From assembly GCA_943736015.1 (NCBI GenBank), contig OX031073.1:21851210-21915209 (forward strand): a DNA stretch of 64,000 nt. Direction: 5' to 3'. Numbering within the stretch: the stretch's first letter is position 1; the number at the start of each line of letters is the position of its first letter. Shown here one piece after another: positions 7,359-61,368 of this stretch. The notes under the pieces were generated by a model. It saw only the letters and a program-made list of their open reading frames with translations. It had not been told where the DNA came from and ran no database searches. This stretch comes from Tridacna crocea (lineage: Eukaryota > Mollusca > Bivalvia > Cardiida > Cardiidae). Both the position numbers and the translations under genes were made by a program.

Positions 7359-7586
7359 TTAACCCTTTCCCAAACGACAAATTTTGGACTCTTCCAAACT
7401 GAAAGAGTTTGCAGACGACAATTTTAGATTTTGAGAAAATGGCAGAAAGTTCTCAAAAAGGATAAAAAACACTGTGGGAAAAGGAGAAATTGCTCGTTAC
7501 GAGCAATTTCTCCTTTTCCCACAGTGTTTTCAAATGACTTGAAATGCAGACACGTAAAAACCAGGGCATTTTTGGGAAAGGGTTAA
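7359..7586. repeat. Family A MITE, subfamily A3
   Basis: TTAACCCTTTCCCAAACGAC left end and GGGAAAGGGTTAA right end. The hairpin tip is GCTCGTTACGAGC in place of GCTGGTTACCAGC, with both arms changed together. A near twin is at 11956-12170. Confidence 0.9.
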
Positions 7587-7679
7587 CATCACACTTAATC
7601 CGTGAGCAACTGAAATATAACTTCGTGCAGACAATAAAATGTTGCATCAGTTGGTGGTTATTTCCGTTTATTTATCGTC

Positions 7680-7960
7680 GCTACCGGTTGCCCATCTGAG
7701 CGACGCCCCCAGAAGACGGTTAGTTGTTGCGGGGGATAGTTCAAGGATACATGTCGAAACTACTCAGAGCTTCGTGTGGTTCTTTATCGTGCTCGGCGTA
7801 TAGCACCGTCACACGGGACCTCGGTTTAATGTCTTATCCGAAAGACTAAATGTTGCATCATTCTGCGCCACACTCAATTTATCCCTATAAGCGTATTAAT
7901 TAGCACTGTGAAGGTTGAATTTATCTACATATATCACGCTACGCGTACAGGGAGGTAATT
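7680..7960. other. Possible old repeat fragment, no gene
   Basis: GC-richer than its surroundings, with CACGGGACCTCGGTTTAATG and ATCCGAAAGACTAA. These phrases look like an old dispersed bivalve repeat to me, but no second copy occurs in this window. Confidence 0.25.
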
Positions 7961-7978
7961 GCATTGAGTTTAAAAGGG

Positions 7979-8110
7979 TTAACCACTTACCAAATGATCG
8001 CGTTTTTTTTAGCTTTCCGGAGGAAAAGACTTTGGAAATCATTGTTTGATATGTACAACTGCTGGTGACCAACGCTTTCTCCTTTTCCCTCTATGTTTTC
8101 TACAAAGACA
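7979..8110. repeat. Family A MITE, badly decayed
   Basis: TTAACCACTTACCAAATGA left end and GCTGGTGACCAACGCTTTCTC hairpin remnant; the right half is lost. Confidence 0.5.
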
Positions 8111-8206
8111 AATCAATCATGTAATGCACAACTAATTTGCTGTGGGTACATGCATGTAATTCTTTTTTTAAAGTGACATCTTGTAAAAACTTAATCCCTA
8201 GATGCT

Positions 8207-9223
8207 AATAGTGATTGTCTCATTTCACTTTCCATTTACCTGCTGAATTGGGTTGTTTACTCGATAACAATATGATTGCCTCGTTTCAACTTCAGTTTGG
8301 TACCAAGTTCGGTTTTTCATGTATAATATTAACGATTGCTTCGATTTCACTTTCATTTCAAGTACCAAGTTTGGTTATCCACACCAAAGCAATTCCATCG
8401 TTTTCACTTTCAGTTTAAATGCCAAGTTCTGACATTCACTCGAGAACAAAGTGATTGCCTCGTTTCACGTTTCATAAAGGAGGCCAGTTTCGTTATTCGC
8501 TAAAAAATAAAGCGATTCCATCGTTTTCACATTTCATTTAGGTGCTGAGTTCGGCAGTTTACTACATCACTAGGTAATTGCCTCGTTTTCATTTTCCATT
8601 TAGGTATCAAGTTTGGTTATTCACCAGAAAGCAAAGTACTTCACATTCTATTTAGGTGCAAAGTTCTGCTATTTACTAGTTAAGATACTTATTGCCTAAT
8701 TTTCACATTCAATTAACTCTTTACCAAACGATAAAATTTTAGACTGGTCCAAATTGGAAGCATTTGCAGACGAAAAAAGTAATGTTACTCAAAAATTGAA
8801 ATTTGTCTTGGGATGGGTAGAAAACATTGTGGGAAAAGGAGAAAATGCTGGTTACCAGCATTTTCTCCTTTTCCCACATTGTTTTCAAAAGGCTTTTTAT
8901 TCAGGGTCGTAAAAACCAGGGTTTGTTTGGGAAAGGGTTAAGGAGACGATTTCTCGGTTGTTCGCTATAGAAAACACAGTCATTGTCTCGTTTTCCCATT
9001 TCCATTTAGGTACTGAGTTCGGCTATTCACTAGATAACAAAATGTTTGCCTCGTTCACAAGATAACAAAATGATTGCCCCGTTTTCACTTTTCATCAAGG
9101 CATCAAGTTCTGTTATTCACTGGAAAATAAAGTTATTGATTCGTTCTCACGTTCCATTAAGATGGCAAGTTCTGTTATTCTTTGGAAAACTAAGTAATGC
9201 CTATACTTACATATTCCTTATAG
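8207..9223 (+). repeat. Array of ~61 bp units resembling the 5' edge of the next exon
   Basis: About 13 degenerate units (for example at 8240, 8299, 8361, 8418, 8479, 8541, 8603, 8656, 9009, 9100 and 9162), each of the form CATTTAGGTGCxGAGTTCGG, then TTCACTxGATAACAAA, TGATTGCCTCG and TTTCAC. The next unit in register is the true splice acceptor and first codons of the exon at 9224 (TATAGGTGCGGAGTTTGG). Several units keep an AG and code for AELGCLLDNN-like residues. A family A element interrupts the array at 8713-8941. Confidence 0.8.
8713..8941. repeat. Family A MITE, full length
   Basis: TTAACTCTTTACCAAACGAT to GGGAAAGGGTTAA with a perfect core palindrome; inserted in the ~61 bp array. Confidence 0.92.
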
Positions 9224-9424
9224 GTGCGGAGTTTGGATGTTCACTTGATAACAAAGTGATTGTCTATCTGGTCGTCTCCGGATCTGTCATTCTACTCATC
9301 ACAGTTGTCTTCATAGCCTTTATTATTGCATTCGGTGCCGACACGATGTTCTCTAAGAAAATGAAGAAGATGATGCGAGTTCCTATAATTGTCTGTTTGA
9401 TCCATCTTCCATGGCTGATTGTCG
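9224..9424 (+). CDS. TMEM272-like membrane protein, internal exon
   Basis: Acceptor CTTATAG, donor GTAAGT, 201 bp, phase 1 on both sides. The codons hold a Cys near the start (GAEFGCSLDN), a hydrophobic span (IVYLVVSGSVILLITVVFI), a basic loop (SKKMKKMM) and a second span (VPIIVCLIHLPWLIVG). The order Gly-x-x-x-x-Cys, YLVVSG and W-x-x-G before an aromatic W is what I know from TMEM272-like four-pass proteins of molluscs and fish, whose function is not established. The preceding exon, which should carry the N-terminus and first span, was not found and is probably upstream of this window. The acceptor is preceded by an array of copies of itself (8207-9223). The family call is from memory, not a search. 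Confidence 0.72.
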
Positions 9425-9654
9425 GTAAGTGTACTCAATAACATTTTAACCATGACAACACAATAACGAGTTTTAGCTCTTTACCAGGGGTTACAGCATA
9501 TAGGCCTATCATTGTAAACATGTTTCATATTCTGTATTTCAGGCAGTGTACAAGGTTTTGTACCATGAACTTTTTTGAAAGCGTCTGGGGTTTACATTGC
9601 GTTTACATTTTCATTGCATATTAGGGTTTGTACTGTGTGCGCGGTCCAAAACGA

Positions 9655-9828
9655 CAATTTCCGTTTTTATGTAATTCAAGTTCTTCTTTGCACAAGTCCA
9701 ATGTAGCACAAAATCAACTGTAGTCGTAAAGTACCGTCTCGGATTAGCCTGCGCGGACTGCGCAGGCTGATCCGAGACGGTACTTTACGCAAATGTCCGA
9801 ATGCTCCTTTTTGCGTGTTGCAGGCCAA
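9655..9828. repeat. Family B MITE, right half
   Basis: Near-perfect palindrome at 9726-9790 (GTCTCGGATTAGCCTGCGCG with its partner) then ACGCAAATGTCCGAATG and GTGTTGCAGGCC. Confidence 0.8.
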
Positions 9829-9996
9829 TTGACCTTTCTGCCGATTTTGAATGACAGGTCTACCAACGTCTGATCGGCCAATGAAAATGCAGCATCGGGC
9901 GTCATGTTAACAAAAATGTCCGACACATTTCTGGTTAGCTTGACAGGCTTGGCAACCGAAATACCGCGTTACTACGCGTTTACAGAAAGGTCAATT
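9828..9996. mobile_element. Short terminal-repeat element P
   Basis: Bounded by AATTGACCTTTCTG and CAGAAAGGTCAATT, 169 bp, with no coding capacity. It directly abuts the family B element. Only copy seen here. Confidence 0.5.
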
Positions 9997-10092
9997 GTGC
10001 TTACATTTTCAGGCATTGTATACCAGTAGGATCTACATTGCGAGCAATTTCTTAGGCAGTACATCAAGTTTATTTTCATGTGTACATTTTAG

Positions 10093-10351
10093 GCAGTGTG
10101 TGGGGATTCCGGAACCTTAAGGACGTGTTGGACGGTTGTGATGGTGATTGCTGCAACAAAGTTCTGGTGTTTTTCGCCGTATCAACGATAGTGGTTGACT
10201 GGTTACTGACCATTGCAACAATCATCAGTATACACTATATGGATATCTCTAGAAAAAAGATTATGTCGCTGTTTTTCGACGAGCCACCTGTTTTTGTGGA
10301 CGTTGGGACCCAACATGACACCATGGAAACTGACGATGAAAAGACAATTAA
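10093..10351 (+). CDS. TMEM272-like membrane protein, next exon
   Basis: Acceptor CATTTTAG; reading continues G|SVWGFRNLKD from the exon at 9224, then a Cys cluster (DGCDGDCCNK), a hydrophobic span (VLVFFAVSTIVVDWLLTIAT) and an acidic cytoplasmic tail. Two ends are possible. (a) Donor AA|GTATGG at 10352 gives phase 2, which matches the exon at 12267 and keeps a long open tail. (b) Read-through gives a stop at 10401-10403. I prefer (a), because the sequence after about 10362 is repeated at 22411, so the read-through codons fall in a duplicated segment. Both isoforms may exist. Confidence 0.7.
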
Positions 10352-10361
10352 GTATGGTCTT

Positions 10362-10956
10362 TCAATCTCCGAGCAGAGTTGTCGTTCGTTACTCTCATCC
10401 TAAATCTCTGCAACGGGCTAAATGACAAGAATCTTGTCAAACCGATGAGAACATGTTTTCTTACTGTTTGACTGTTTCATGTGTAACATGATTTAGTAGA
10501 CAATAGAAATTTGATTCTGGACACATTATAGGTGCATTCAATCTGATTAATTTACCTGTATACAATAGAACTATTTTTTTCAAGCTTCTTACTGATCAGA
10601 GTCTTACGCCAATTGTAACAAAAATGGCTGCGCCCATGAATGATTATAACAGTTTCAACTCACCGATTAAGCTAAGTTTGTAAGATTAAAAACATTGTCC
10701 TTTAAAAGACATTTGAACTTTTCAGAAAATCCCTCTTTTTCTTATTTCCTACCACTAAGTCTGATTGGCCGTATGCTGTTTGAACAGTACACAAAACAAT
10801 GGATATTGGTCTTTCTTTCACGGGCGTTTGTGTCGACATTTTGAGTTATGGTCATGTGACGAAAATATCGCGTGTTGACGGACTACTTTCTGAGCCCACT
10901 ACAGAGGTGAATTAGAATGATCTGTAGTGCAAGAGAGTGATGGCCTTTCGTACAGT
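10362..10956. repeat. Duplicated segment, copy 1
   Basis: Matches 22411-23206 over nearly its whole length (CTACCACTAAGTCTGATTGG and GACTACTTTCTGAGCCCACT in both). It starts just downstream of the donor at 10352. I see no clear terminal repeats, so whether it is a transposon or a segmental copy is open. Confidence 0.75.
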
Positions 10957-11017
10957 TATAAAAGTACGGCATGTACCCTAGCATCAGAAAAAAATGTTAC
11001 TTTTAGACGGTAAAATC

Positions 11018-11246
11018 TAACCCTTTACCATACAATGCCCACTTTTAACGACCCTGGGAAAGAAGCCTTTGGAAAACAATGTGAGAAAAGGAGAAAATGC
11101 TGGGAAACCAGCATTTTCTTCTTTACCCACAATGTTTTCTTCCTTATCAAAGAAAAATTGCACCATTTGAACCGAACTGAAATTTTCGTCTGCAAATGCT
11201 CTCAATTTGGACAAGGCTAAAATTTTGTCGTCTGGTAAAGGATAAA
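11018..11246. repeat. Family A MITE
   Basis: CTAACCCTTTACCATACAA to CTGGTAAAGGATAAA. The core is GCTGGGAAACCAGC with small mismatches between arms. Confidence 0.85.
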
Positions 11247-11346
11247 GCCACGCTATAGGAAAAATGCGTCGGCGTTATGCATTTTACAACGCAGGTCATC
11301 GTATATTTATGGGTTAACAAATCCGTTTATTCCAATAGCACACCAT

Positions 11347-11737
11347 CTTCGCAAGCCAAGGCTGACGATTCACTACGTTACTCTACCCTTGGCGGATCGA
11401 GCTTGATTTCTACATTCACCCGATACGCTTTTTCATTGGATGCAGTCAGCTCTAGCTGCAACGAATGAAATTGCTCGTAGTATTTCATCTTTGATAAAAA
11501 TAGAACAAGGTCGTTACCTTTCGAATAGAAGGTAAACCCACGTGGATTTATGCTTGTCGCTTCATGTGTATTCGTAAGCGGCTTGTAAAACGATATTTTA
11601 CTTGCTTTTAGCAATATGATGTAAAGGGGGGGTAATAACCAGCATCAAATAGAGGGCGCATCGCAGGAATTTCGAAATCGGGCTCAATAAGCCAAGGTAA
11701 GATCCACATAGTGATCGTAACCTTGGCTCGCGAAGAT
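11347..11737. mobile_element. MULE-like element Q, copy 1
   Basis: Ends CATCTTCGCAAGCCAAGG and CCTTGGCTCGCGAAGATG form long imperfect inverted repeats. Flanks ATAGCACAC and ATAGGACAG match at 7 of 9 positions, as expected of an old 9 bp target duplication. Other copies are at 24549 and 42895. Confidence 0.75.
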
Positions 11738-11864
11738 GATAGGACAGTGATCCTTGTGGTAAATGTAGACTGGTCCTTTGATTTTTTCCCCGGGTTAGCC
11801 TGGACGGGTACACAGGCTGACCCTGGTCGATACATTTTCCAAATACATTAAACCCCATATTCAC

Positions 11865-12236
11865 AGTTCATGCCTCAGGTAACCAACATTTTCTCCTTTT
11901 CCCACAATGTGTTTTTTCTACCCTCCCAGAGCAAATTTCAACTTTTGAGTCACAATAACACTTTCCCAAACGACAAATTTTGGACTCTTCCAAACCAAAA
12001 GAGTTTGCAGACGACAATTTTAGATTTGGAGAAAATGGCAGAAAGTTCTCACAAAGGGCAGAAAACACTGTGGGAAAAGGAGAAATTGCTCGTTACGAGC
12101 AATTTCTCCTTTCCCACAGTGTTTTCAAAAGACTTTAACTGCAGACTGGGCTTGTTTGGGAAAGGGTTAATATTGTAGTCTGCAAATGCTTTCGATTTGG
12201 ACCGGTCTACAATTTTGTCGTGTGGTAATGAGTTAA
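11865..12236. repeat. Family A MITE split by a second family A insertion
   Basis: Left piece 11870-11955 (hairpin right arm and right half) resumes at 12171 with TATTGTAGTCTGCAAATGC and ends GGTAATGAGTTAA. The break is filled by the A3 copy at 11956-12170. Confidence 0.75.
11956..12170. repeat. Family A3 MITE nested in family A
   Basis: CTTTCCCAAACGACAAATTT to GGGAAAGGGTTAA with tip GCTCGTTACGAGC; close to the copy at 7359. Confidence 0.85.
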
Positions 12237-12266
12237 CTATACATCTATGCTTTATTTCGTTACTAG

Positions 12267-12340
12267 GAACCCGCCAACGTTCGAAGAGATTGTTTGCTCG
12301 CCTGTATCAGATGAGACGCACATCAAAACCGGAAAGAGAG
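12267..12340 (+). CDS. Short cytoplasmic-tail exon of the TMEM272-like gene
   Basis: Acceptor TTCGTTACTAG, donor AG|GTAAAA, 74 bp. With incoming phase 2 (from 10351) it reads K|NPPTFEEIVCSPVSDETH and leaves in phase 1, matching the exon at 14620. A second frame (TRQRSKRLFARLYQMRR) is also open and would lead through the 60 bp exon at 14330 to a quick stop. I prefer the first because it keeps a 113-codon downstream frame open. Confidence 0.5.
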
Positions 12341-12457
12341 GTAAAAGTTCTGAACACATGAACCATGGAGTGAAGGCGTCTCCTTGATATATTTTACTAA
12401 GCAAGTCAGCTTGTAGATCTCATTATAGATCCATTAAATCAGTTTTGTATGATAATT

Positions 12458-12684
12458 TACCCTTTCCCAAACAATCCCTGGTTTTTACGAGCCTGGAATA
12501 GTAGCCTTTTGAAAACATCGTGGGAAAAGGAGAAAATGCTGGTAACCAGCATTTTCTCCTTTTCCCACAATGTTTTCTACCCTATCATAGACAGAAATCA
12601 TCTTTTCAGCAAGAGTTGAATTGTAGTCTGCAAATGCTTTCAGTTTGGTCTAGTCCAAAATTTTGTCCTTTGGGAAATGGTTAA
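12458..12684. repeat. Family A MITE
   Basis: TTTACCCTTTCCCAAACAAT to TGGGAAATGGTTAA, palindrome nearly perfect; same sub-type as 16159, 27530 and 37154 but reversed. Confidence 0.88.
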
Positions 12685-12776
12685 CTGCATCATGAGCAAC
12701 TATAGTCCTTTGACAAGCAGAGAATCGACCGATAGCAAATTCATGTCAGACTGACTTTAGATTTTCTTTAGATTTT

Positions 12777-13332
12777 AGTATACTGCAAAGACATTTCTTG
12801 TGATCTGATTGGATAATATGCTCCGAACATAGGCCTATATCATGTACACTGACAAAACCAACGTAAAAGCAGTTTCCCCTGCTTCGAAAATTGTTCGGAG
12901 GTAATTGCAAAATCAACGGAACTAATGAACAAAGTATTAATGTATACTAACGAAGAAAGTTGTCAGGTACCATATGCACTGCTTTGTTTGGACAGATCTT
13001 CAACAACAATAATGTACAAGCTGAAAAACTTACCTTTTTAAAACGAAAATGGCGGATTTAAAATGTCTCCGATGACGTATGCTATGACGTAGGTTGTTAC
13101 CCCTGAAAACGGCGGCGTAGATCAAGATTAACATCAAAATTATGCACCATGCTGTACGTTTTAGCGCGTAGGGTTTCAGTGACGTCAATTCTCAGTGGCG
13201 TCAGTTTTTATTGAATTGGGACACTCAGATGGGATTTTTTACTTCGTCAGCCTACAAAAATTTTAAACAAAAAAAAACAGGTAAAATTTGGCTTAACAAA
13301 CGTTGGAACGGTAAAACTTTGCATTATAATAA
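12777..13332. mobile_element. Element J, long copy
   Basis: Ends TATACTGCAAAG and CTTTGCATTATAATAA; inside are TGATCTGATTGG and GTGACGTCA motifs shared with copies at 31569, 33303 and 37877. About 190 bp longer than the copy at 33303. The J2 palindrome follows immediately. Confidence 0.7.
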
Positions 13333-13334
13333 AG

Positions 13335-13472: not shown

Positions 13473-13486
13473 TGATATTGTCCTTT

Positions 13487-16760: not shown

Positions 16761-16849
16761 AAAAAATGTGTTTTGTAAACTTAATATTAAAAAAAAAAAG
16801 CAAAATACCAATACGAGTCGGCAATGCCCTTTCTTATTTAACATTAGTA

Positions 16850-17053
16850 ATACAGAGCCCGTATTGACCAACCATTCTTAAAAACATTCTTCGTCTTATT
16901 CTCCAGAATTTTCTACATTTGTAAGTAACACAACTTCTGATTGGCTAAACCATCCGGTTTAGCGAATCAGAAGTTGTGTCACTTACAAACGTAGAAAACC
17001 TTGGAGAATGAAACTAAGAATACTCTCAAGAATGGTCGGTGAATACAGGCCCA
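16850..17053. repeat. Family D full-length fold-back element, copy 1
   Basis: Almost all of it is inverted: AGCCCGTATTGACCAACC at the left, GGTCGGTGAATACAGGCCC at the right, and a core pairing ACACAACTTCTGATTGGC with AATCAGAAGTTGTGT. Confidence 0.85.
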
Positions 17054-17125
17054 GTTTAACCAACATCGCTCGTGAACACATTCTCAAACACACAAAAGCA
17101 CATTGAAAACAAAAGTATATAAATC

Positions 17126-17999: not shown

Positions 18000-18228
18000 T
18001 TAACGCTTTACCCCATAAGGCATTGCTATGGTATCTCTAATTGACCCTAAATAACAGCACGGATAAAGCCGTTTCTTGTGTGTATATGACACCTTTTGAT
18101 AGTGTAGAAAACAATGTGGCAAAAGGTGAAATTGCTCGTCACGAGCAATTTCACCTTTTGCCACAATGTTTTCCAAAGGCTCCTACAAGCAATGCGTACA
18201 AATGAGTATCTATGGAGTAAAGGGTTAA
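18000..18228. repeat. Family A MITE, subfamily A2
   Basis: TTAACGCTTTACCCCATAAG to GGAGTAAAGGGTTAA; core GGTGAAATTGCTCGTCACG with its exact partner. The second A2 copy is at 40248-40476 in the other orientation. Confidence 0.92.
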
Positions 18229-18399: not shown

Positions 18400-18575
18400 T
18401 GACTGTATCGTGAGGTAGAATGGTTTTTTGATATGTAGAAAATTTATAATCAGCAAAAAGTTTCGATCGGGGTCAGCCTGTGCAGACTGCGCAGGCTGAC
18501 CTCGATCGAAACTTTTTGCCGATTGCCTTTTGACAGATTCATCAATCCCTTTTTTTCATAGAGCTTTGCTCACAT
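18400..18575. repeat. Family C MITE with near-perfect palindrome
   Basis: At 18456-18519 the arms AAAAAGTTTCGATCGGGGTC and GACCTCGATCGAAACTTTTT flank AGCCTGTGCAGACTGCGCAGG. Confidence 0.85.
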
Positions 18576-18579: not shown

Positions 18580-18842
18580 CCTGCAACATGCCAAAGGGGG
18601 CATTCAAACATTTGCGTAAAGTATCATCTCGGATCAGCCTGCGCAGTTCGCGCAGGCTAATCCCAGACGACACTTTCCGTTTTTATGTAAACTTCTGTTT
18701 TGCACAAGTCTACTGAAGCACAAAATCTATTGTAGTCGTAAAGTGCCGTCTCGGATTAGCTTGCGCGGACTGCACAGGCTGATCCGAGACGACACATTTA
18801 CGCAAATGTCGGAATGTCCCTTTTCGTGTATTGCAAGCCCCA
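18580..18842. repeat. Family B MITE, full length
   Basis: Two palindromic cores (18626-18678 and 18739-18795) joined by CTGTTTTGCACAAGTCTACT. Ends GCCTGCAACATGCC and GTGTATTGCAAGCCCC are inverted. Confidence 0.88.
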
Positions 18843-19280: not shown

Positions 19281-20043
19281 TTCGAGAACACGGACCCTGG
19301 GTCCGTAGTCACCAATTATTCTTAAGAACATTCTTTTTATCACACAACTCCCCTTGTTTTCAATGTAATACAGCCATTACGAATTTTCTTGTCTCACACA
19401 CGCGTGAAATAAGAAAATAGTGCTGTATTTTGGTCAACACTCTGTAATTATATGCTTCATTTCTAAAACATTACTGACCTAGGTTCCTGGTGGAAATTAG
19501 TGGTCAAAATTCTTAACGGGATAAAGTTGTTAATTCAATCACTTGTAGACTCAAAACAGAATCAATATATGCAAATTTCTTCGGAACTATTTTTCGTTCG
19601 TAATGTACCTGTCAAAGTAAGCGCACAGGCTTCATGTAAATTTCACTACACATTATACATGTACATGTATGCCTCTAATGTAACACATTTTGGACTTAAA
19701 TTCTGGCTATATTGTAATGTGATAAAAAGAATCTGACACTCGTTGGCTTTTGAGGTAAAAAATTTTTAAACTCGTCCACGAAAAAATGTTATTAAGCTCG
19801 CCAAAGGCTCGCTTAATAACATTTTTTGCAAACACGTTTAATATTTTTTTATCTCAAAAACCAACTCATGTCAGATCCTATATGTCTTGTTCTTCAAGAT
19901 TTTCAAATTGTGAAAGTAACAGAACTTCTAATTGGCTAAACCAAATGGTTTAGCCAATCAGAAGTTCTGTTACTTTCACAGTGACAAATTTCTGAAGAAT
20001 AAGACTAAGAATGTCCTTAAGAATGGTTGGTGAATATGGACCT
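19281..20043. repeat. Family D element, copy 2, interrupted by element M
   Basis: Left end at 19281-19330 (GGTCCGTAGTCACCAATTAT), right part from 19880 with the core AACTTCTAATTGGCTAAACC and its partner, ending GGTTGGTGAATATGGACC. The gap is filled by M. Confidence 0.75.
19331..19878. mobile_element. Element M, copy 2, nested in family D
   Basis: TTATCACACAACTCCCCTTG to CATGTCAGATCCTATATG. Internal palindrome TTATTAAGCTCGCCAAAGGC with partner GCTCGCTTAATAA. Confidence 0.75.
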
Positions 20044-23702: not shown

Positions 23703-23962
23703 TGCAACACGTGAAAAAGGGCATTCGGACATTTGCGTTAAGTGTCGTCTCGGATCAGCCTGTGCAGTTAGCACAAGCTAATTCGAAACGTCACTTTCCC
23801 TTTTTAGGTAATTCCTTGTTTTGGGCAAGTCTGCTGTAGCACAAAATCTAATGTAGTCGTAAAGTTCCGTCTCGGATTAGCCTGCGCGGACTGCGCAGGC
23901 TGATCCGAGACGACTCTTAACGCAAATGTCCGAATGAGCCTTTTCGCGTGCTGCAGGCCAGT
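23703..23962. repeat. Family B MITE, full length
   Basis: Both palindromic cores present; the second (GTCTCGGATTAGCCTGCGCG) is near perfect. Ends AACACGTGAAAAAGGGCATT and GCGTGCTGCAGGCC. Confidence 0.88.
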
Positions 23963-25269: not shown

Positions 25270-25473
25270 CTGGGCCCGTATTCACCAACCATTCTTGAGA
25301 ATATTCTTAGGCCTATTCTTCAGAATTTTGCAAATGTGAAAGTAACAGAACGTCTGATTGGCTAAACCGGATGGTTTAGCCAATCAGACGTTCTGTTACT
25401 TTCACAGTCAGGAAATCTTGAAGAATAAGACCAAGAACGTCCTTGAGAATGGTTGGTGAATACGGGCCCTGAT
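25270..25473. repeat. Family D fold-back, copy 3 (best preserved)
   Basis: GGGCCCGTATTCACCAACCA and its reverse complement at the right end; core AGAACGTCTGATTGGCTAAA pairs with TTTAGCCAATCAGACGTTCT. Confidence 0.9.
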
Positions 25474-28076: not shown

Positions 28077-28618
28077 TTAGCCCTTTCCCAAACGACAAAT
28101 TTTAGACACATCCAAACTCAGAGCATCCACAGACCAAAAAATTCAGAATGGGTACAAATGAACTTTAGGTCTCTAATAGGATAGAAAACATTGAGGGAAA
28201 AGGAGAAAATGCATTTTCTCCTTTTCCCACAATGTTTTCAAAAGGTTTCTATCTCACTTCCAAACAGAGAGCATCCACAGACAAAAAATTCAGAATGGGT
28301 ACAAATGAACTTAAGGTCTCTAATAGGGTAGAAAACATTGAGGGAAAAGGAGAAAATGCTGGTTACCAGCATTTTGTCCTTTTCCCACAATGTTTTCAAA
28401 AGGTTTCTATATCACTTCCAAACAGAGAGCATCCTCCACAGACAAAAAACTCAGAATGGGTACAAATGAACTTTAGGTCTCTAATAGGATAAAAAAAAAA
28501 AACATTGTGGGAAAAGGAGAAAATGATGCTTACCAGCTTTTTCTCCTTTTCCCACAATGTTTTCAAAAGGTTTCTATCTCAGGGTCGCAAAAACCAGGGA
28601 TTGTTAGGGAAAGGTTTA
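28077..28618. repeat. Family A MITE with three tandem hairpins
   Basis: Usual ends (CCCTTTCCCAAACGACAA, GGGAAAGGTTTAA), but the core plus its left flank is repeated three times with a ~145-150 bp period. Hairpins at 28190-28240, 28330-28400 and 28490-28570. The first has lost its tip (AAAATGCATTTT). Confidence 0.88.
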
Positions 28619-32869: not shown

Positions 32870-33000
32870 CTCCTGTAAGTTTTGAGGTGGAACGATCCGA
32901 CAGGAAGAAAATTGACAATAGCAAAATGTTTCGATTCAGGTCAGCCTGCGCGGATTGCGCAGGCTGACCTGAATCGATACTTTTTGCAGATGGATTTAGC
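32870..33000. repeat. Family C MITE, near-perfect palindrome
   Basis: TTTCGATTCAGGTCAGCCTG and CAGGCTGACCTGAATCGATA. Both arms carry TTCAGG/CCTGAA where the 18456 copy has TCGGGG/CCTCGA. Confidence 0.82.
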
Positions 33001-34106: not shown

Positions 34107-34781
34107 AAGGTCCGTTTATACAGAGCGCGAATGCGAACGCGTCCAAAGCGAACACGAACGCGAACGCGACTTTTGAGCAGTTTTGCCATTCAAATAGAGC
34201 AGGAACCCGAACGCGGAAAACCGTCGACGGCTTTGGAGGCGGCTCGTCTTTTTCTTGCTGTGAGAGATAAAATTTGGTCATTTGGAATCATGGCGTAGGG
34301 AGAGTCAGATACGGAGGAGATCATAGTACTGTGCTTGTACGCAAAACAACGGAGGAAGAGAAAGAGGTGTGTGTCAGTGCACAAAATTGTCATACAGTCC
34401 ATGATTCTTCTCAATTTCAAGAATCATGGCTTCTGTCTTGTCCATTGTCTTGTCCATTCTTCTCCAAACTTCACAAGCAAAGTAGACTGACGCCAGGGCC
34501 TAGCTTTTCCTTGGGACGGTCAGGCGTACAAGTTTCTATTTGTGGAAATGATGCAAGGGAAGTACCTGCTGATTGGTTGATAGCAAAAAAGCCGCGCGAC
34601 CTTCTCAGAAAATTCGCTCTGGGGGCAATCAAGGCGGTCGTTCGCGCGAACAAATGTTTGTTCGCGTTCGCGTTCGCACTGTATTTGAACGGTTCCTCTA
34701 CAAATGACTAAAATATTCCTGGACGAAAAACCGCGTTCGCTTTCGCGTTCGCGTTCGCACTCTGTATAAACGGACCTTAAT
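34107..34781. mobile_element. GC-rich terminal-repeat MITE (possibly PIF/Harbinger-derived)
   Basis: TTAAGGTCCGTTTATACAGA at the left and TCTGTATAAACGGACCTTAA at the right, with AACGCGAACGCG-type subterminal repeats at both ends. The interior frames (both strands) show no transposase motif I know. The class is a guess from the style of the ends. Confidence 0.75.
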
Positions 34782-36276
34782 ACCTAACAAGTCTCCCCGG
34801 TGCGTTATACCTAACAAGTCTCCCCGGTGCGTTATACCTAACAAGTCTCCACGAAGCATTGTGCCTAACAAGTCTCCCCGGTGCATTGTGCCTAACAATT
34901 CTCCCCGCTGCATTGTGCCTAACGAGTCTCCCCGGTGCATTATACCTAACAATTCTCCAAGGTGCATTGTACCTAACGAGTCTCCCCGGTGCATTGTACC
35001 TAACAGGTCTCCCCGGTGCAGTATACCTAACAAGTATCCCCGGTGCATTATACCTAACAGGTCTCCCCGGTGCAGTATACCTAACAAGTCCCCCCCGGTG
35101 CATTGTACCTAACAAGTCTTCCCGGTGCAGTATACCTAACAAGTCTCCCCGGTGCAGTATACCGCAGTATACCTAACATGTCTCCCCGCTGTAGTATACC
35201 ATAGTATACCTATCAAGTCTCTCCGGTGCGTTGTACCTAATGAGTCTCCCCGGTGCAGTATACCAAACATGTCTCCCGGTGCATAATACCTAACAGGTCT
35301 CCCCGGTGCAGTATACATAACAAGTCTCCCCAGTGCATTGTAAATAACAGGTCTCCCCGATGCAGCATGCCTAACAAGTCTCCCCGGTGCATTGTACCTA
35401 ACAAGTCTCCCAGGTGCAGTATGCTTAACAAGTCTCCCCGGTGCATTATACCTAACAAGTCTCCCCGGCACATTATACCTAACAAGTCTCCCCGGTGCAT
35501 TATACCTAACAAGTCACCCCGGTACATTATACCTAACAAGTCTCCCCGGTACATTATACCTCACAAGTCCCCCCGGTACATTATACCTAACAAGTCTTCA
35601 CAGTACATTATACCTAACAAGTCTCCCCGTTACATTATACCTAACAAGTCTCCCCGGTACATTGTACCTAACAAGTCTCCCCGGTACAGTATACCTAACA
35701 AGTCTCCCCGGTGCAGTATACCTAACAAATCTCCCCGGTATATTATACCTAACAAGTCTTCCCGTTATATTATACCTAACAAGTCTCCCCGGTACATTAT
35801 ACCTAACAAATCTTTTCGGTACATTATACCTAACAAGTCCCCCCGGTACGTTATACCTAACAAGTCCCCCCGGTACGTTATACCTAACAAGTCTTTCCGG
35901 TATGTTATACCTAACAAGTCTCCCCGGGTACATTATACCTAACAAGTCCCCCCCCCCGGTACATTATACCTAACAAGTCTCTCCGGTACATTTTACCTAA
36001 CAAGTCTTTCCGGTACATTATACCTAACAAGTCTTCCCGTTACATTATACCTAACAAGTCTCCCCGGTACATTATACCTAACAAGTCTCTCCGGTACACT
36101 TTACCTAACAAGTCTTTCCGGTACATTATACCTAACAAGTCTTCCCGTTACATTATACCTAACAAGCCTTCTCGGTATGTTATGCCTAACAAGTCTCCCC
36201 GGTGCAGTATACCTAACAAATCTCCCCGGTGCAGTATACCTAACAAATCTCTCCGGTACATTATACCCAACAAGTC
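34782..36276. repeat. 27 bp satellite, about 55 units
   Basis: Unit CCTAACAAGTCTCCCCGGTA plus CATTATA. Because 27 is a multiple of three and stops are rare, several frames on both strands stay open (PNKSPRYII-type 9-residue repeats); these are not genes. GGTGC-type units fill the left part to about 35500 and return near 36190, with GGTAC-type units between. Irregular units lie at 35155-35210. Confidence 0.95.
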
Positions 36277-38682: not shown

Positions 38683-39110
38683 TAAATATGAAAAGGGGGT
38701 GGGGCAAATACATAGGCAAAACCCATCGACTAAGATCAGCTTGTGCAGCCTGCGCAGGCTGACCTTGGCCGGTGTAATGCAGGGAAATGACCCTCGCCTA
38801 CAAAATGACTCACGGGTCATTTCTCTACGTAGAGGATTAACCCGGGTCATTATTCTACGTAGAGGATTGCCCCGGGTCATTATTCTACGTAGAGAAATAG
38901 CCCCAGGGTCATTATTCTAGGTAGAGAAGTGACTCCAGAGGGTTATTTCTCTAAGTAGAATAATGACCCACGGGTCATTCCTCTACGTAGAGAAATGACC
39001 GGTGGGTCATTTTGTAGGGTTGGGTAATTTCTCTGCATTACACCGGAACCTGGTGCTGCTGGTCGATTTTCTGTATGTCCAAGGACCAGTTTACCTCATG
39101 ATTCAGTCAG
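38683..39110. repeat. Family C MITE interrupted by element K
   Basis: AAGATCAGCTTGTGCAGCCT and GGCTGACCTTGGCC before K; GCTGCTGGTCGATTTTCTGT after it. Confidence 0.65.
38774..39046. mobile_element. Element K with an internal CTACGTAGAG array, copy 1
   Basis: Ends GGTGTAATGCAGGGAAATGA and ATTTCTCTGCATTACACC. Between them about eight ~35 bp units built from TTCTCTACGTAGAGAAATGA and GGGTCATT, many palindromic. Copy 2 is at 61369-61668. Confidence 0.88.
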
Positions 39111-40247: not shown

Positions 40248-40476
40248 TTAACCCTTTACTCCATAGATACTCATTTCTACGCATTGCATGTAGGAGCCTT
40301 TGGAAAACATTGTGGCAAAAAGTGAAATTGCTCGTGACGAGCAATTTCACCTTTTGCCACAATGTTTTCTACACTATCAAAAGGTGCCATATACACATAA
40401 GAAACGGCTTCATCCTTGCTGTAATTTAGGGTCAATTAGAGATACCATAGAAATGCCTTATGGGGTAAAGGGTTAA
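40248..40476. repeat. Family A MITE, subfamily A2
   Basis: TTAACCCTTTACTCCATAGA to GGGGTAAAGGGTTAA; core AGTGAAATTGCTCGTGACG with partner. Confidence 0.92.
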
Positions 40477-41133: not shown

Positions 41134-41392
41134 AGTGCAATACGCCAAAAGGTGCATTCGGACATTTGCGTAAAGTGTCGTCACGGATTAGCCAGCGCAG
41201 TCCGCGCAGGCTAATCCGAGACGGCCCTTTACGACTACATTAGATTTTGTGCTACAGTAGACTTGCGTAAAACAGAAAATCACATAAAATCGGAAAGTGT
41301 CGTTTCGGATTAGCCTGTGCGGACTGCACACGCTGATCCGAGACGACACTTTACGCAAATGTCCGAATGACCCTTTTCGCGTGTTGCAGGCC
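41134..41392. repeat. Family B MITE, full length
   Basis: Cores GTCACGGATTAGCCAGCGCA and GTTTCGGATTAGCCTGTGCG with partners; ends AATACGCCAAAAGGTGCATT and CGCGTGTTGCAGGCC. Confidence 0.85.
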
Positions 41393-42344: not shown

Positions 42345-42624
42345 TTAACTCTTTACCAAAACGACAAAATTTTAGACTGGTTCAAATTGAAAGCATTTAC
42401 AGACGACTAAATAAAGGTGACTGAAAAGTTGAAATTTCTTCTGGGAAGTGCAGAAAACACTGTGGGAAAAGGAGAAAATGCTGGTAACCAGCATTTTCTC
42501 CTTTTCCTACAGTGTTTTCAAAAGGCTTCTTTCTCATCAGCATTTTCTCCTTTTCCCGCAATGTTTTCAATAGGCTTCTTTCTCAGGATCGTCAAAAGTA
42601 GGGATTGTCCGGTAATGGACTAAA
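42345..42624. repeat. Family A MITE with a duplicated right arm
   Basis: TTAACTCTTTACCAAAACGA to CCGGTAATGGACTAAA. CAGCATTTTCTCCTTTTCC and AGGCTTCTTTCTCA occur twice in tandem (42489-42580). Confidence 0.88.
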
Positions 42625-54265: not shown

Positions 54266-54282
54266 ACACAATGTGTGCCAAG

Positions 54283-55665: not shown

Positions 55666-55667
55666 TT

Positions 55668-55891
55668 TACTCTTTACCACATGAGAAAATTTTAGATTGG
55701 TCCAAATTGAAAGCATTTGCAGACGACAAAATAAAGGTGACTGAAAAATTGAAATTTGTTCTGGGAAGGGTAGAAAACACTGTGGAAAAGGAGAAAATGC
55801 TGGTTACCAGCATTTTCTCCTTTTCCACAGTGTTTTCAAAAGGCTTTTTTCTCAGGGGTATCAAAAGTAGGGATTGTGTGGTAATGGGTTG
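55668..55891. repeat. Family A MITE
   Basis: TTTACTCTTTACCACATGAG to GTGGTAATGGGTTGA. Both arms lack the same base (CTGTGGAAAAGG / CCTTTTCCACAG). Confidence 0.9.
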
Positions 55892-55899
55892 AACAAAAA

Positions 55900-56050
55900 G
55901 GGAAATTTGTCTTGTCTCTTGTGAAGACTAGGAAACATTGTGGAAAGGGAAAAATGCCGGTTACCAGCATTTTCTCCTTTTCTCACTACACTGCCAAATG
56001 CCTTCTCTCTCAGTGCCGTAAAAAGGTGGGATTGTGTGGTAAGGAGTCAA
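55900..56050. repeat. Family A MITE, decayed
   Basis: GCCGGTTACCAGCATTTTCT core and GTGTGGTAAGGAGTCAA end. Confidence 0.7.
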
Positions 56051-56147
56051 GACATATATTCTTACCAACTTTCATAAGTATTGAACATAACACTTGGTAT
56101 CTAGGATATACAGAGTTTATCTAAAATTTAACCAGGTGACCTAGTTT

Positions 56148-56370
56148 TTAATCCTTTCCAAACAACAAAATTCTAGACTGGTCCAACTTAAAAGCATTTG
56201 CAGATGACAAAATTCATGTGACTCAAAAACTGAAAATTGTTTAGGGAAGGGTAGAAAACATTGTTGGAAAAGGAGAAAATGCTGGTTACCAGTTTTTTCT
56301 CCTTTTCCCACAATGTTTACAAAATGTCTCTAACTCCGGGCCATGAAAAACCTGGAAAAGGGTTGGGAGA
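56148..56370. repeat. Family A MITE
   Basis: TTAATCCTTTCCAAACAACA to ACCTGGAAAAGGGTTGG; core GCTGGTTACCAGT. Confidence 0.82.
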
Positions 56371-56539
56371 GGGAATAACCCTGTTTTGTAAGTCTGTTTT
56401 TCTGTACCAGGTGACAATCTCCATCCCAAATTAAAGCCATTTTCATCTTCTTGTAAAAAGTTCCTGTATTGACACTCCAGGCTATCGCCAAAGTGTGAGT
56501 CACAAGCAACCGATCAATAGAATTGATGAAATTCATCTC

Positions 56540-56611
56540 TCATCTTTTATGAAATCCCATGCCTGTCCAGAAAGTCAGTAGGTTGTTTCGTAGATACATC
56601 TCCAGTAGCAT
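56540..56611 (-). CDS. Last coding exon of an unidentified minus-strand gene
   Basis: Acceptor CATTTCTATTGTAG. In phase 0, which follows from 57665-57775, it reads MLLEMYLRNNLLTFWTGMGF, HKR and TGA. A second frame (ATGDVSTKQPTDFLDRHGIS and stop) is also open and would need phase 1 input. No poly(A) signal was found close by. I do not recognise the protein; the end is hydrophobic and aromatic. Confidence 0.5.
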   Translation of the reverse strand: MLLEMYLRNNLLTFWTGMGFHKR

Positions 56612-56619
56612 CTACAATA

Positions 56620-57263
56620 GAAATGAAAGTACACTGACATTACTTTTTAGATAGTGCAGTTATATTTCCAAATTTTGAAAAAAAAAAGTCATGAAAATTT
56701 TTCATACAAATGAAACAAAATGATGGCTCTATAGTGCCAGCATAATGTGGAGAGTATTTTACCACATGACAATCTATATGTAATCCATTTTATACCACTG
56801 TCCAGGTAAAGAATCACCAGACTGACTTTCTTCAGATACATTTATTTTCACCCGAATGAAAAGCACAAGGTTTGCTGCCTAAGAGCATGCCATAAAAATC
56901 ACAAATAAGCCATCATATATAATTTCAAAATTGTCAAATTCAAATACCTGAAATTACACAATGAATAGCTCAATTTGACAATTCGCAAAATTTCTATTAC
57001 ATTTCAAAGACAAGGGTTTTGCAAAGCAGCCCATAATACACCGCAAGGGGCTTGTCAGTCAAATTATTAATTTCAGAATTAAAGGGCAGATAACTCTAGA
57101 CCTCATGAACAGAACGAAAAGAAAAAAGTCCCATGCACAACTACACATCATAGACTCATACTGCTATGTTTGAACTTATTCCAATAGAAACTGTTGGAGT
57201 TGTGCTCACAAGAAATTGCTCCTGGAAGGACAGATGGGCGGAAGGATGACTGGTGCCATAACA
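56620..57263. other. Intronic, no exon seen
   Basis: AT-rich unique-looking DNA between two exons of the minus-strand gene. Confidence 0.45.
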
Positions 57264-57267
57264 TACA

Positions 57268-57568
57268 TGCGCGGATCCAGATATCTTTCTCAGGGGGGAT
57301 CCCACCAAAAAAGCACTCGTCTTATTATATGATACTTTGATTTCCGGATTTCAGTGGATGTAAGCTGTTAACAAGAAAAGTCAACATTTCGAGTTCTAAC
57401 CATGAGGAGGTCTCCACATTCAGAACTTTTTTTTAAAATTTATGACTGTATTTTACATAAATGCTGTGCAATATCAAACCAGCACCATTTCATGAATCTG
57501 ATAACCACATTTTTGCCAAAATTCCGGGGGTCCAGACCCCCAGTCCCCCACTCTGGATCCGCCCATGA
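57268..57568. mobile_element. Element V, copy 2
   Basis: CATGCGCGGATCCAGATATC to CTCTGGATCCGCCCATG, flanked by ACATA on both sides. Reverse of 44850-45175. It lies in the intron just past exon 57665. Confidence 0.82.
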
Positions 57569-57664
57569 CATAATAAGACTCTTTTACAGTTTTCTTCACA
57601 AAAGTATGGTACACAATCGCGACAAAAAGTACAGTTGGAAATTGAAAATAGCATGGCATCTTAC

Positions 57665-57775
57665 CAACAGTTCTATCACAACAAGTCCCTCAACATTTTC
57701 AGGAATGGCAAAATTGGTTCCAGTTGAATGGACTGCAACCCTATCTACACCTTCAATATATTTCAGTGCATCTAC
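57665..57775 (-). CDS. Internal exon of an unidentified minus-strand gene
   Basis: Acceptor TTTTGCTCTTGCAG, donor TTG|GTAAGA, 111 bp, phase 0 at both ends: VDALKYIEGVDRVAVHSTGT, then NFAIPENVEGLVVIELL. Excellent splice sites and amino-acid make-up; continues into 56540-56611. The upstream partner 59732-59780 leaves in phase 1, so at least one exon between them is missing from my model. Confidence 0.68.
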
Positions 57776-57842
57776 CTGCAAGAGCAAAAATATAAATGAA
57801 ATACATCTGTGTGTGTCCATATACAGATATATATATATATGA

Positions 57843-57965
57843 ACCATGCTTTTGCAGAAGGGGACCTAATGCATCTACAAAATGTCTTGACCTAGGCTTA
57901 CCTGGTCTGAAAAATTTTGCCATTTGTCAGATTTTCTGTGTGTTCAAGGACCAGTCTACCTTGTG
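57843..57965. repeat. Family C MITE, decayed
   Basis: CATGCTTTTGCAGAAGGGGA, CTTGACCTAGGCTTACCTGG, CAAGGACCAGTCTACC. Confidence 0.6.
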
Positions 57966-58155
57966 ATAAACTCTTTACCAAACAACAAAATTTTACACAG
58001 GTCCAAACTGAAAGCATTTGCAGACAGCAAATTAAATGTTGTTAAAATGGTGATTTGTTTTTCCAATGGGTAAAAAACGTGGGGAAAGGAGAAAACGCTG
58101 GTTTCTAGCATTTTCTCCTTTTAGCACAAAGTTGGGATTGTGTGGTAAAGGATAA
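57965..58155. repeat. Family A MITE, right half shortened
   Basis: AAACTCTTTACCAAACAACA to GTGGTAAAGGATAA; core GCTGGTTTCTAGC. Confidence 0.8.
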
Positions 58156-58279
58156 AAATGTTGTTAAATAAGGATGGATTACTGATTCACAATTATGTGA
58201 TGACTTGCTGGGTATCATGCATGGATCATTGAGATACCTTTAGCTCCTTTTTGCTTGATCATGGCTCATGTATACATGT

Positions 58280-58506
58280 TTAACTCCTTACCACACCAGT
58301 AAATTTGAGACTGGTCCAAATTGAAAGCATTTGCAGATGACAAAATCAGTGACTGAAAATTTGAAATTTGTTTTGTGAAGGGTAGAAAACATTGTGGGAA
58401 AAAGAGAAAATGCTGGTTACCAGCATTTTCTCCTTTTCCCACAATGTTTTCTAATGGCTTCTTTCTCAGGGGCATCAAAAGTAGGGATTGTGTGGTAATG
58501 GTTTAA
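58280..58506. repeat. Family A MITE, full length
   Basis: TTAACTCCTTACCACACCAG to GTGGTAATGGTTTAA; the final TTAA is shared with the next copy. Confidence 0.9.
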
Positions 58507-58735
58507 CCCTTTTCCAAACAACAAAATTTAACCTAGACCAAATAAAAAGAGTCTACAGATGACAAAATAAATGTGACTCAAAAATTGCTAATTGTTTTGG
58601 GAAGGATAGAGAAAATTGTGGTACATGTAATTGGAGAAAAAAACTGGTTAACAGTATTTCTTCTTTTCCCACATTTCAAATGTCTTTTTGCGTTGGGTCA
58701 CTAAAACTTGGGATTGTGCAGTAAAGAATTAAAGT
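58503..58735. repeat. Family A MITE, decayed, adjoining the previous copy
   Basis: TTAACCCTTTTCCAAACAAC to GTGCAGTAAAGAATTAA; core ACTGGTTAACAGT. Confidence 0.8.
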
Positions 58736-58739
58736 TTTT

Positions 58740-59060
58740 CTAAACAATGGATGTTTACACAGCATCATGTTCAACCAACAAAAGCTAAACTGGTTAGACT
58801 TTAAGTAGCCGCCAAGAATTTGAAGGTGAACAAATCCCTGAAAAATGCTGGCAAGTTGAACTCCTTAAGATCACTTTAAAGTATGGCAGTCATTGGGTTA
58901 AAAGTTTCCAAATCTTTAATTGTACTTGAGATTTGGCTGTTCTAGCACTGACTGGACTGGTACAGAGACAATCAAGACAAAATCAGTTGAAAGTTCGGCA
59001 CAGATTTTGTGAGCAAGTTTGAACTCTTAAAAAATGCTGCACATAAGAGAAAACCCTGCA
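58740..59060. other. No gene seen
   Basis: Unique-looking sequence in the first intron region of the minus-strand gene at 59780. Confidence 0.45.
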
Positions 59061-59061
59061 T

Positions 59062-59145
59062 TTCATCAGTTAAATTTACGACGGACTTGAGACGATACAG
59101 TGTACAATAAATGTCCAAATATGAAAAAGATCACCGTAGCATCTC
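59062..59145. repeat. Repeat S, copy 2 (reversed)
   Basis: GACGGACTTGAGACGATACA and CAATAAATGTCCAAATATGA match the reverse of 36400-36480. Confidence 0.6.
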
Positions 59146-59159
59146 ATTATTGAGCGTAC

Positions 59160-59335
59160 ACACAATCCCTACTTTAGAAAACACTGCGGGAATAGAAGAA
59201 AATGCTGTTAACCAGCATTTTCTCCTTTTCCCACAATGTTTTCTACCATTTACAAAACAAATTTCAAAGTTTCAGTCTACAAATGCTTTCGATTTAGACA
59301 AGCCTAAAATATTGTTGCTTAGTAAATGAGATAAA
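59160..59335. repeat. Family A MITE, left half shortened
   Basis: CACAATCCCTACTTTAGAAA to TTAGTAAATGAGATAA; core AATGCTGTTAACCAGCATT. Confidence 0.8.
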
Positions 59336-59731
59336 GCTTGGAAATATTTCTACAAAATTTAAAGTACTTTTATAGAATCAATTCTGTAACAGAACATAGC
59401 TTTGTACATTAATTAAGTCCCATTTTGCAAGAGCATGACTCATGTGATTTAGAAGGTGTTCAGAATTCAATGCAACTTCTAATGCAAGTGCATTCCGAAT
59501 TTCTGTCCGTCGCGGTAGGTAGTTGTTTCAATTAAATCCAGTAACTTAAATGGTTTCCGGTGCATTCCGGTGAACTTTCGCCGCTCTAAATCTTATGGCG
59601 AAAAGTAAATGGCACTGCTTCCACAACAAACGTTCATGTCATACATTAGCATTTATGTCATCTATTTGAAATAATTCAACAAATACAACTTTTCTACAGG
59701 AATTAAATGAAATAAATAATTTTCCACTCAC
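59336..59731. other. No gene seen
   Basis: First intron (minus sense) of the gene starting at 59780; a short repeat of GTGCATTCCG at 59489 and 59562. Confidence 0.4.
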
Positions 59732-59780
59732 TGAATAGATCTATATTCTGGTGGGCAGCTGGCGTCTGTTGCGTAGCCAT
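59732..59780 (-). CDS. First coding exon of a minus-strand gene
   Basis: ATG in good context (CCAACATGGC) and a consensus donor CA|GTGAGT; reads MATQQTPAAHQNIDLF and leaves in phase 1. An inverted CCAAT motif (TTTGATTGGAC on the minus strand) lies about 25-35 bp upstream and element U just beyond, the same layout as at 43915. Probably the start of the gene whose later exons are 57665 and 56540, but the phase gap means an exon is unseen. Confidence 0.5.
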
Positions 59781-59869
59781 GTTGGGAATCTAACAACATC
59801 ATTGTCCAATCAAATAAGCCGTTACTAAATGGGCTTTCCCAAATCTCATTGGTCAATTATCGAATGAAT

Positions 59870-60137
59870 ATTTTTTCAACTGCAATCTGTAAATTTTTAT
59901 ATGTTGCAAAATTTTTTTTTTTCATTGGATAATTTTTTTTTTTCATTGGATAATTTTTTTTTGTATTCGATATTTATCTTTTATTGAATGTATATAATTT
60001 AAGTTTAGAACGAATATATTTTTATCCAATGAATATTTTTTTGTTTTCGAATGAAAATTTTTTTTTCGAATGAATATTTTTTCGTTTTAGAATATAAATT
60101 TTGATATCGAATATTGCAACGTTTGTCACGCCATAGC
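59870..60137. mobile_element. AT-rich element U, copy 2 (reversed)
   Basis: Right end ATTGCAACGTTTGTCACGCC and ATAGCATCC equal the reverse of the left end at 43612; the interior has repeated TTCATTGGATAATTTTTTTT. The left terminal repeat is not clear. Confidence 0.7.
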
Positions 60138-60614
60138 ATCCTGGGTACAGAAACGGACTACGTTTCTATGCAACAAACGGTACTTTGAATTTCGAAGTAA
60201 TATAAACGTTTACTCAATAAAACGCTACCTGGTACGATTTATTCAGAAATGATTAGCAGTTTAGAGAAATCTGAAGCTGAAACAGGCCTGGTTTTTCCTC
60301 GAACGTATTGATAAAAGCCATTTTCTCCATTGCTACTTAATATAGTGTATTACTACTCCAATCTCTCACTGTCCGGGATAGTGATGCGTCATATAAGACA
60401 GGTCTAATCTTCGAAGAATATGACATGTGCAGACAAGGCTGATGAAAAATTAGTCCGCTTTTGTACCCAGAATGCCCATATTAGATAGATGTGTATTTGT
60501 AGAATGCCATCTAGCAGGAGATATTGCTCAAGAAGTGATGCTTGTTTTCGCTATACAGTGTACTCCAGCAGTTCGTTCGTTTAAATGGTGTTTTAAGCCG
60601 CTTTCAACTTTATT
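60138..60614. other. No gene seen
   Basis: No repeat or exon noticed. Confidence 0.4.
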
Positions 60615-60800
60615 ATTTTAGTCATATCACTGCGACACCTCACATATTTATGTTTTCTGGGTTTCACCAGTAATAGGCTAGGCTCTGAAGTGTCTTTCCC
60701 AAGGACACTCTTGTGAAAGGCTCAGTGGAGACAGTGAGGCTCGAATCCGGTGCCTCTAAGTCACGAGACCTACACTTTTCCACTGAGCCAATTTTTTCCC
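60615..60800 (-). repeat. tRNA-derived SINE fragment
   Basis: Minus strand: TTGGCTCAGTGGAAAAGTG (A box) and CACCGGATTCGAGCCTCAC (B box), then TCCTTGGGAAAGACACTTC. Confidence 0.6.
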
Positions 60801-60933
60801 CTTTTGGAAACGACGAGGTTAAAAAAAATTGAACCTCGACATTTCATAAGCGCAAGGAAAGTAAAAATTAGATATAGCTCCAGATATGAGACACATTTCG
60901 GTAAAAGGACAAAATTGCTGGGTACCAATATTT

Positions 60934-61104
60934 GGCCTGTAACACATGAAAAAGGTTATTTGGGCATATGCGTAAAGTGTCGTGTAGGATCAGACTGCCC
61001 GGTCCACGCAGGCTGATCCTAGACTGCACTTTACGACTACATGGGAATTTTAGAGGGTAGAAAATATTGTGGTGAAAGGTCAAAATGCTAGGTACCATAA
61101 TTTG
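60934..61104. repeat. Family B half-copy plus family A scrap
   Basis: GGCCTGTAACACATGAAAAA and the first B core at 60970-61032, then GAGGGTAGAAAATATTGTGG, a family A left arm. Confidence 0.65.
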
Positions 61105-61368
61105 GCTTGTAACACGTGAAAAAGGTTATTTGAACATTTGCGTAAAGTGCCGTCTTTGATCAGCCTGCGCAGTCCGCGCAGGCTGATCAAAGACGGCACT
61201 TTACGACTACATTAGATTTTGTGCTACAGTAGACTTTCGCAAAACAGAAAATTCCATAAAAAAACAGAGTTTCGTTTCGGATTAGTCTGCTCGAACTGCA
61301 CAGGTTGATCCGGTAACATTTTACACAAATGTCCGAAAGCCCCTTTCCGCGAGTTGCCGTTGTAATGC
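61105..61368. repeat. Family B MITE with a perfect first core
   Basis: 61147-61206 has arms AAAGTGCCGTCTTTGATCAG and CTGATCAAAGACGGCACTTT. Both arms read TTTGATCAG/CTGATCAAA where the consensus has TCGGATCAG/CTGATCCGA. Element K follows the right end. Confidence 0.85.

Follow-up and report, generated by a model that had tools for sequence, protein, structure and literature searches.

A 64,000-nucleotide stretch of the Tridacna crocea genome (contig OX031073.1; G000:C18:21851210-21915209; hereafter, the window) carries four families of palindromic repeats, A to D, in which the two arms of a hairpin differ between copies by changes that match each other across the stem. This pattern of matched changes is real, and it is mainly an effect of family history. 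In the explanation that we favor with moderate confidence, family A, and probably B to D too, would be high-copy, non-coding mobile elements with long hairpins, similar to miniature inverted-repeat transposable elements (MITEs). Matched arm changes would mostly arise in a small number of source elements per subfamily, whose stem pairing is maintained, and would be multiplied by transposition; after insertion, each copy would decay, with its arms mutating nearly independently. The main support for this explanation comes from family A.

The window (37.6% G+C from base counts) is dense in such structures, with 65 non-overlapping palindromes by the scoring script used. An ungapped stem scan covered the window together with 20 segments of 10 kb each from preset positions on contigs 1-6 (264 kb in all, from a genome of 1,048,827,098 bases in 31 contigs) and recovered 153 A, 30 B, 28 C, and 8 D stems, the B and C matches overlapping through a common core so that their counts are not exclusive. 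No stem of any of the four families was found in the same 264 kb after base shuffling, scanned on one strand. Across the 1.05-Gb genome there are 191,599 exact matches to the 31-bp A core, in which 30 bases are fixed, and a very rough extrapolation from 153 stems per 264 kb gives about 600,000 A copies genome-wide. A genome search with one D element returned 4,702 first-look candidates, 40 of which were scored.

Subfamily structure of the matched changes

Family A is a MITE-like element of about 230 bp with TTAA at both ends and a central 67-bp palindrome of 33+1+33 bases. Of 40 further A2 copies fetched, 35 had two recognizable ends, and 30 of these carry exact TTAA at each of them, as in a TTAA-target (piggyBac-like) MITE; the element is likewise short, non-coding, and present in very high copy. 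The two longest open reading frames of the window (229 and 193 amino acids) lie outside family A, within a 27-bp tandem array of about 55 copies (34780-36276) that holds open frames up to the former length. The idea that the central palindrome is itself a pair of terminus-like sites was rejected, local alignment of the ends to the arms giving p 0.06-0.10 for A1 and A3 and 0.2-0.76 for A2 and A4. The family A features of the window are as follows:

7359..7586, + strand: A3 element from TTAA to TTAA, read from the sequence; 39 other places score 93-99% against the query, mostly over the element part
7465..7531, + strand: A3 central palindrome (33+1+33) with matched variants at pairs 8, 26, and 31
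12061..12126, + strand: A3 palindrome with one base deleted from its right arm
18000..18228, + strand: A2 element from TTAA to TTAA, from the sequence, with ends checked on further A2 copies
18107..18173, + strand: A2 palindrome with matched variants at pairs 14, 21, 26, and 31
40303..40369, - strand: A2 palindrome with matched variants at pairs 14, 21, 26, and 31 and an unmatched pair 19

Relative to the commonest A stem, the A3 palindrome at 7465-7531 has changed from T-A to C-G at pair 8, from A-T to T-A at pair 26, and from G-C to C-G at pair 31, all matched, along with one unmatched change at pair 1; the A3 copy at 12061 carries the same matched changes in a stem whose right arm is one base short. 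The A2 palindrome at 18107-18173 has one unmatched change, at pair 8, beside its four matched ones. Among the window copies, pairs 26 and 31 are changed in both A2 and A3, pairs 14 and 21 in A2 only, and pair 8 in A3 only. The matched changes that the first-pass annotation had named in all four families are thus present, with small corrections for unmatched pairs, the deletion at 12061, and mismatches in C.

That annotation had also proposed comparing the frequency of paired substitutions with divergence in the flanks; measured against independence of the arms, paired changes are in excess. Against a reference stem, 116 of the 153 A stems (those with fewer than 54 of 67 matches being dropped) show 400 one-sided departures, 89 complementary two-sided departures vs 18.6 expected under independence, and 14 non-complementary two-sided ones. 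As many as 69 of the 89 complementary doubles fall at five subfamily-diagnostic pairs (8, 14, 21, 26, and 31), four of which are A-T/T-A or G-C/C-G swaps with no G-T intermediate. Of the five stem pairs by which A2 departs from the commonest A stem, four are changed on both sides and match, the exception being pair 13. When changes are placed on a tree built only from the flanks, 11 of the 44 events on internal branches are matched, as against 28 of the 401 on terminal branches (Fisher p 0.0005), and two-sided unmatched changes number 1 and 19, respectively; these counts are approximate, coming from Fitch parsimony over 190 noisy columns in 126 of the 153 A elements (at least 50 of 67 matches and a recognizable flank). 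Founder effects, which the annotation had set as a possible refutation, therefore account for most of the matched changes, since these are concentrated at diagnostic pairs and over-represented on internal branches, and since private changes are mostly one-sided.

Changes within copies and at the palindrome tip

With about 190,000 exact cores, there are enough events to bound from above how much arm copying takes place at a chosen pair. At pair 28, which has no known subfamily split, 191,599 copies are unchanged, 9,192 are changed on one side, and 311 on both. Independence predicts 120 two-sided copies, and the unmatched two-sided copies alone number about 131 of the 311; both kinds of two-sided change are in excess, which is expected if copies differ in age. 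Complementary changes make up 29 of the 50 two-sided copies listed, 24.5 being expected from the margins (p 0.09), which amounts to a surplus of 55 copies; as a share of all changed copies, this is 0.58%, with a 95% range of -0.10 to 1.26%. The private changes of the listed A2, A4, and B stems are similar in kind: 306 are one-sided, 13 complementary, and 8 non-complementary, with 3.1 expected for each two-sided kind. This count covers 100 B stems, 94 of 100 A2 rows (three were of other length and three were removed by a stem-type filter, one of them A2 by its letters), and 89 of 100 A4 rows (ten were of other length and one had an A2-type stem); pairs 13, 31, and 32 of A2 and pairs 10, 15, and 21 of B were left out, and all pairs of A4 were kept.

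Comparison of the stem with its flanks places the maintenance of pairing at an earlier stage. Stem identity is still 78% (0.775) between copies whose flanks are only 30-40% identical, and 93% where flank identity is 80-90%. Within A2, the flank collects 0.81 singletons per site and the stem 0.88; changes found in at most two copies stand at 1.64 and 1.42 per site, and copies differ from the majority letter on average by 7.9% and 4.2%, respectively (36 columns of flank and 26 of stem, in 81 of 100 rows; 15 rows were omitted for indels and 4 as duplicates, and four whose indel fell outside the letters listed were kept). Arms diverging at the rate of the flanks, which would have spoken against the earlier proposal, are thus seen for new singletons, which are equal, and not for shared differences, which are fewer in the stem. 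New mutations strike the A2 stem and flank alike, and it is shared, source-level variation that the stem is spared. Hence, pairing appears to be maintained mainly at the level of the source elements. The maintenance is partial: a mismatched A2 source was amplified (A.C at pair 13 in 36 of 94 copies), as were mismatched B sources (C.A at pair 10 in 81, T.G at pair 15 in 38, and T.G at pair 21 in 23 of the 100 listed). The initial proposal of two causes, arm copying or selection for the stem, is supported in part: what holds is that pairing is kept at the source level, and the counts do not favor copying within copies as a common process.

Several observations weigh against so simple a division. 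Over the 28 non-diagnostic pairs of the 116 A stems, 20 complementary doubles were counted vs about 7 (6.9) expected. Pair 31, one of the diagnostic pairs, has 551 two-sided copies; of the 50 listed, 30 are complementary where 22.5 are expected (p 0.014), a surplus of 150 copies (range 15 to 279), two of the 50 copies being 120 bp apart and perhaps not independent. In A3 (38 of 40 copies, one having an indel and one not being placed; all pairs), there are 60 one-sided, 7 complementary, and 0 non-complementary changes, with 1.7 complementary expected; three of the seven lie at the CpG pairs 31 and 32. A4 has 8 complementary changes vs 1.9 expected, and 4 non-complementary vs 1.8. Moreover, no source element or transposase was identified, and no search aimed at an autonomous piggyBac partner was made; nor, to our knowledge, has any function of the stem been described. 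Taken together, the counts indicate that some coupling within copies likely exists and contributes few of the changes. They do not support frequent copying between the arms of a copy, while rare events are possible, pair 31, A3, and the B hairpin at 61141 (see below) being the cases that lean that way.

The unpaired center of the palindrome behaves differently from its arms. With copies oriented by both flanks, the center of 94 A2 copies is C in 78, G in 13, A in 2, and T in 1, and that of 89 A4 copies is T in 80, A in 8, and G in 1. The center is thus complemented in 9-14% of copies, which is 11 to 70 times the frequency of that substitution at other positions of these stems (C>G 0.2%, T>A 0.8%), and among changed centers the complement is favored (p 2e-8 in A2 and 0.0016 in A4). 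No center change was seen in 38 A3 copies, a set biased by having been picked by similarity to a query that contains the center. One of the 100 listed B copies (C1:624983) has its five-base loop inverted, three bases off the usual loop. A founder origin of the center changes gained no support: on a flank tree of 40 A2 copies (13 with center G, chosen as such, and 27 with center C), the center label needs 12 changes vs 11.2 when shuffled, i.e., there is no clustering, on a tree that is itself weak (pair 13 state p 0.047). Copies with changed and unchanged centers do not differ significantly in their other changes (1.31 vs 1.42 in A2; 2.12 vs 1.76 in A4). A strand switch confined to the tip would be a plausible source of the center changes and of the inverted B loop, and such tip-specific complementing would fit template switching; the unchanged A3 centers and the lack of any sign of inversions reaching pair 13 (see below) speak against it.

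An inversion of the full palindrome reaching past pair 13 was also considered, under which A.C in A2 would read G.T, and the test was negative. The G.T pattern has 459 copies; among the 100 listed, a hand tally gave a center of G in 34, C in 61, A in 3, and T in 2. The apparent enrichment of center G is an artefact, as the pattern is oriented by a single flank base: of 32 center-G copies examined with their flanks, 24 are A.C copies read backwards and 8 are true G.T, and 7 of 9 center-C copies with flanks fetched are true G.T. After correction, center G is found in about 8 of 55 true G.T copies, no more than the 13 in 94 seen among A2 copies at large. An inversion reaching pair 13 is unsupported.

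These results allow a wider and more tentative proposal, which we rate below an even chance: the palindromes would form, within one genome, a natural collection of some 190,000 nearly identical sites prone to cruciform formation, strand switching at the tip would recurrently complement the center, arm copying would occur in about 1% of mutated copies, and pairing would rest on selection during amplification. If true, hairpin-mediated mutation would mostly turn the tip over instead of mending the arms.

Families B to D and other repeats

The hairpins of the other families in the window are these:

61141..61205, - strand: B hairpin, perfect 30+5+30, with two adjacent matched changes
60971..61035, - strand: B hairpin with 24 of 30 pairs, in the adjacent unit of a tandem duplication of 170 bp (60900-61212)
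18453..18519, + strand: C hairpin, 29 of 31 pairs
32921..32987, + strand: C hairpin, 29 of 31 pairs
16844..17063, strand not assigned: D foldback element
19884..20005, strand not assigned: D foldback element (inner part)
25272..25469, strand not assigned: D foldback element

The arms of the B hairpin at 61141-61205 carry TTTGATCA/TGATCAAA, and all 30 pairs match; its tandem neighbor at 60971 pairs at only 24 positions. The two adjacent matched changes were found in none of the 100 listed B stems and nowhere else in the 328 kb examined. This hairpin, which may instead represent a private subfamily, is the best single candidate for an arm-to-arm copying event. In C, both hairpins show matched variants; the copy at 18453 has GATCGGGGTC opposite GACCTCGATC, with one mismatch, and 12 copies of the stem show several Watson-Crick types at pairs 15-19. 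The D elements differ at 16925, 19916, and 25342, with ACACAAC/GTTGTGT vs ACAGAAC/GTTCTGT and AACTTC/GAAGTT vs AACGTC/GACGTT. The B and C hairpins have the core AGCCTGCGCGGACTGCGCAGGCTG in common and differ in their outer arms. Sixteen of the 30 B matches form eight inverted pairs inside one element each, seven of them at 122-bp spacing; elements with two inverted hairpins 122 bp apart lie at 18615-18801, 23736-23922, and 41169-41355.

Other arrangements were noted in passing. A short tandem array of A palindromes (28184-28581) has a unit of about 147-167 bp and one copy without a tip. Partial tandem duplications of palindrome arms adjoin A stems at 42489-42585, at L015 near 6595, and at L144, and might reflect slipped or switched synthesis. 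On contig 1 (C1:14008517-14175363), a pair of A2 copies, each with unvarying listed letters, appears three times at intervals of about 80-84 kb, which suggests a large tandem duplication. Two related arrays of a tandem repeat of about 166 bp lie some 60 kb apart near the ends of the window (1899-2950 and 62782-63834), and two further palindromic arrays with a unit of about 30 bp contain GGTCATT and TCTACGTAGAG (38803-39011 and 61390-61618).

Alternative explanations and comparison with known systems

As to why pairing is kept in the sources under the favored explanation, the greater part of our confidence goes to the paired stem helping amplification, and the lesser part to rare template switches that would rewrite source arms. 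A distinct alternative is one that we consider unlikely while giving it real weight: template switching in replication would copy arm onto arm often enough in source lineages to produce the differences between subfamilies in single steps. The mechanism is known, two papers describing arm homogenization and spacer inversion by template switching between inverted-repeat arms (PMC8604942) and the creation of compensatory changes in hairpins (PMC8794818). It would suit the diagnostic swaps that lack a G-T intermediate, the fully paired B hairpin at 61141 with its two adjacent changes, an A4 copy (C1:989611) whose 27 listed pairs all match and in which pairs 8 and 10 are changed on both arms, and the complemented centers of A2 and A4, far above background, with the inverted B loop. 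Set against it are the surplus at pair 28, which is not distinct from zero, and the mismatched diagnostic pairs of A2 (13) and B (10); because these persist in so many copies, neither transposition nor residence routinely rewrites the arms.

A pure founder effect, by which matched changes were fixed in the sources by chance and pairing was not maintained, would draw on the strong subfamily structure, yet it sits poorly with the two-sided, matched state of most pairs separating A2 and with stems that diverge far less than flanks, and we regard it as improbable. Least of all do we expect a structured RNA under compensatory selection: there is a hairpin, and C has its several Watson-Crick types, but no Rfam family was matched at gathering score in the window, the diagnostic A changes are mostly swaps with no G-U intermediate, and private changes freely break pairing. 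The analysis separates two usually confounded causes of matched changes in hairpins, descent from a source whose stem was already paired and copying between the arms of the inserted copy itself. More generally, covariation among repeat copies does not on its own point to a selected RNA or to gene conversion acting in every copy.

A literature search, which did lead to work on template switching, met no description of this element in its listings, which is no proof of its absence. With its TTAA ends, CCCTTT-like termini, length, and no coding capacity seen, we take family A to be like piggyBac-type and other TTAA-target MITEs; unlike these, it has a nearly perfect 67-bp central palindrome, which is kept across subfamilies whose flanks align poorly. 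In D, long inverted repeats dominate, presumably as in foldback elements such as Galileo of Drosophila, whereas A to C are far shorter than such elements. The complementing of the A center would resemble template-switch mutations at inverted repeats (PMC8604942, PMC8794818) in that it would fit a very short spacer inversion. In contrast to the footprints presented there, it is the change at the center that is common here, in two subfamilies, and not the homogenization of the arms.

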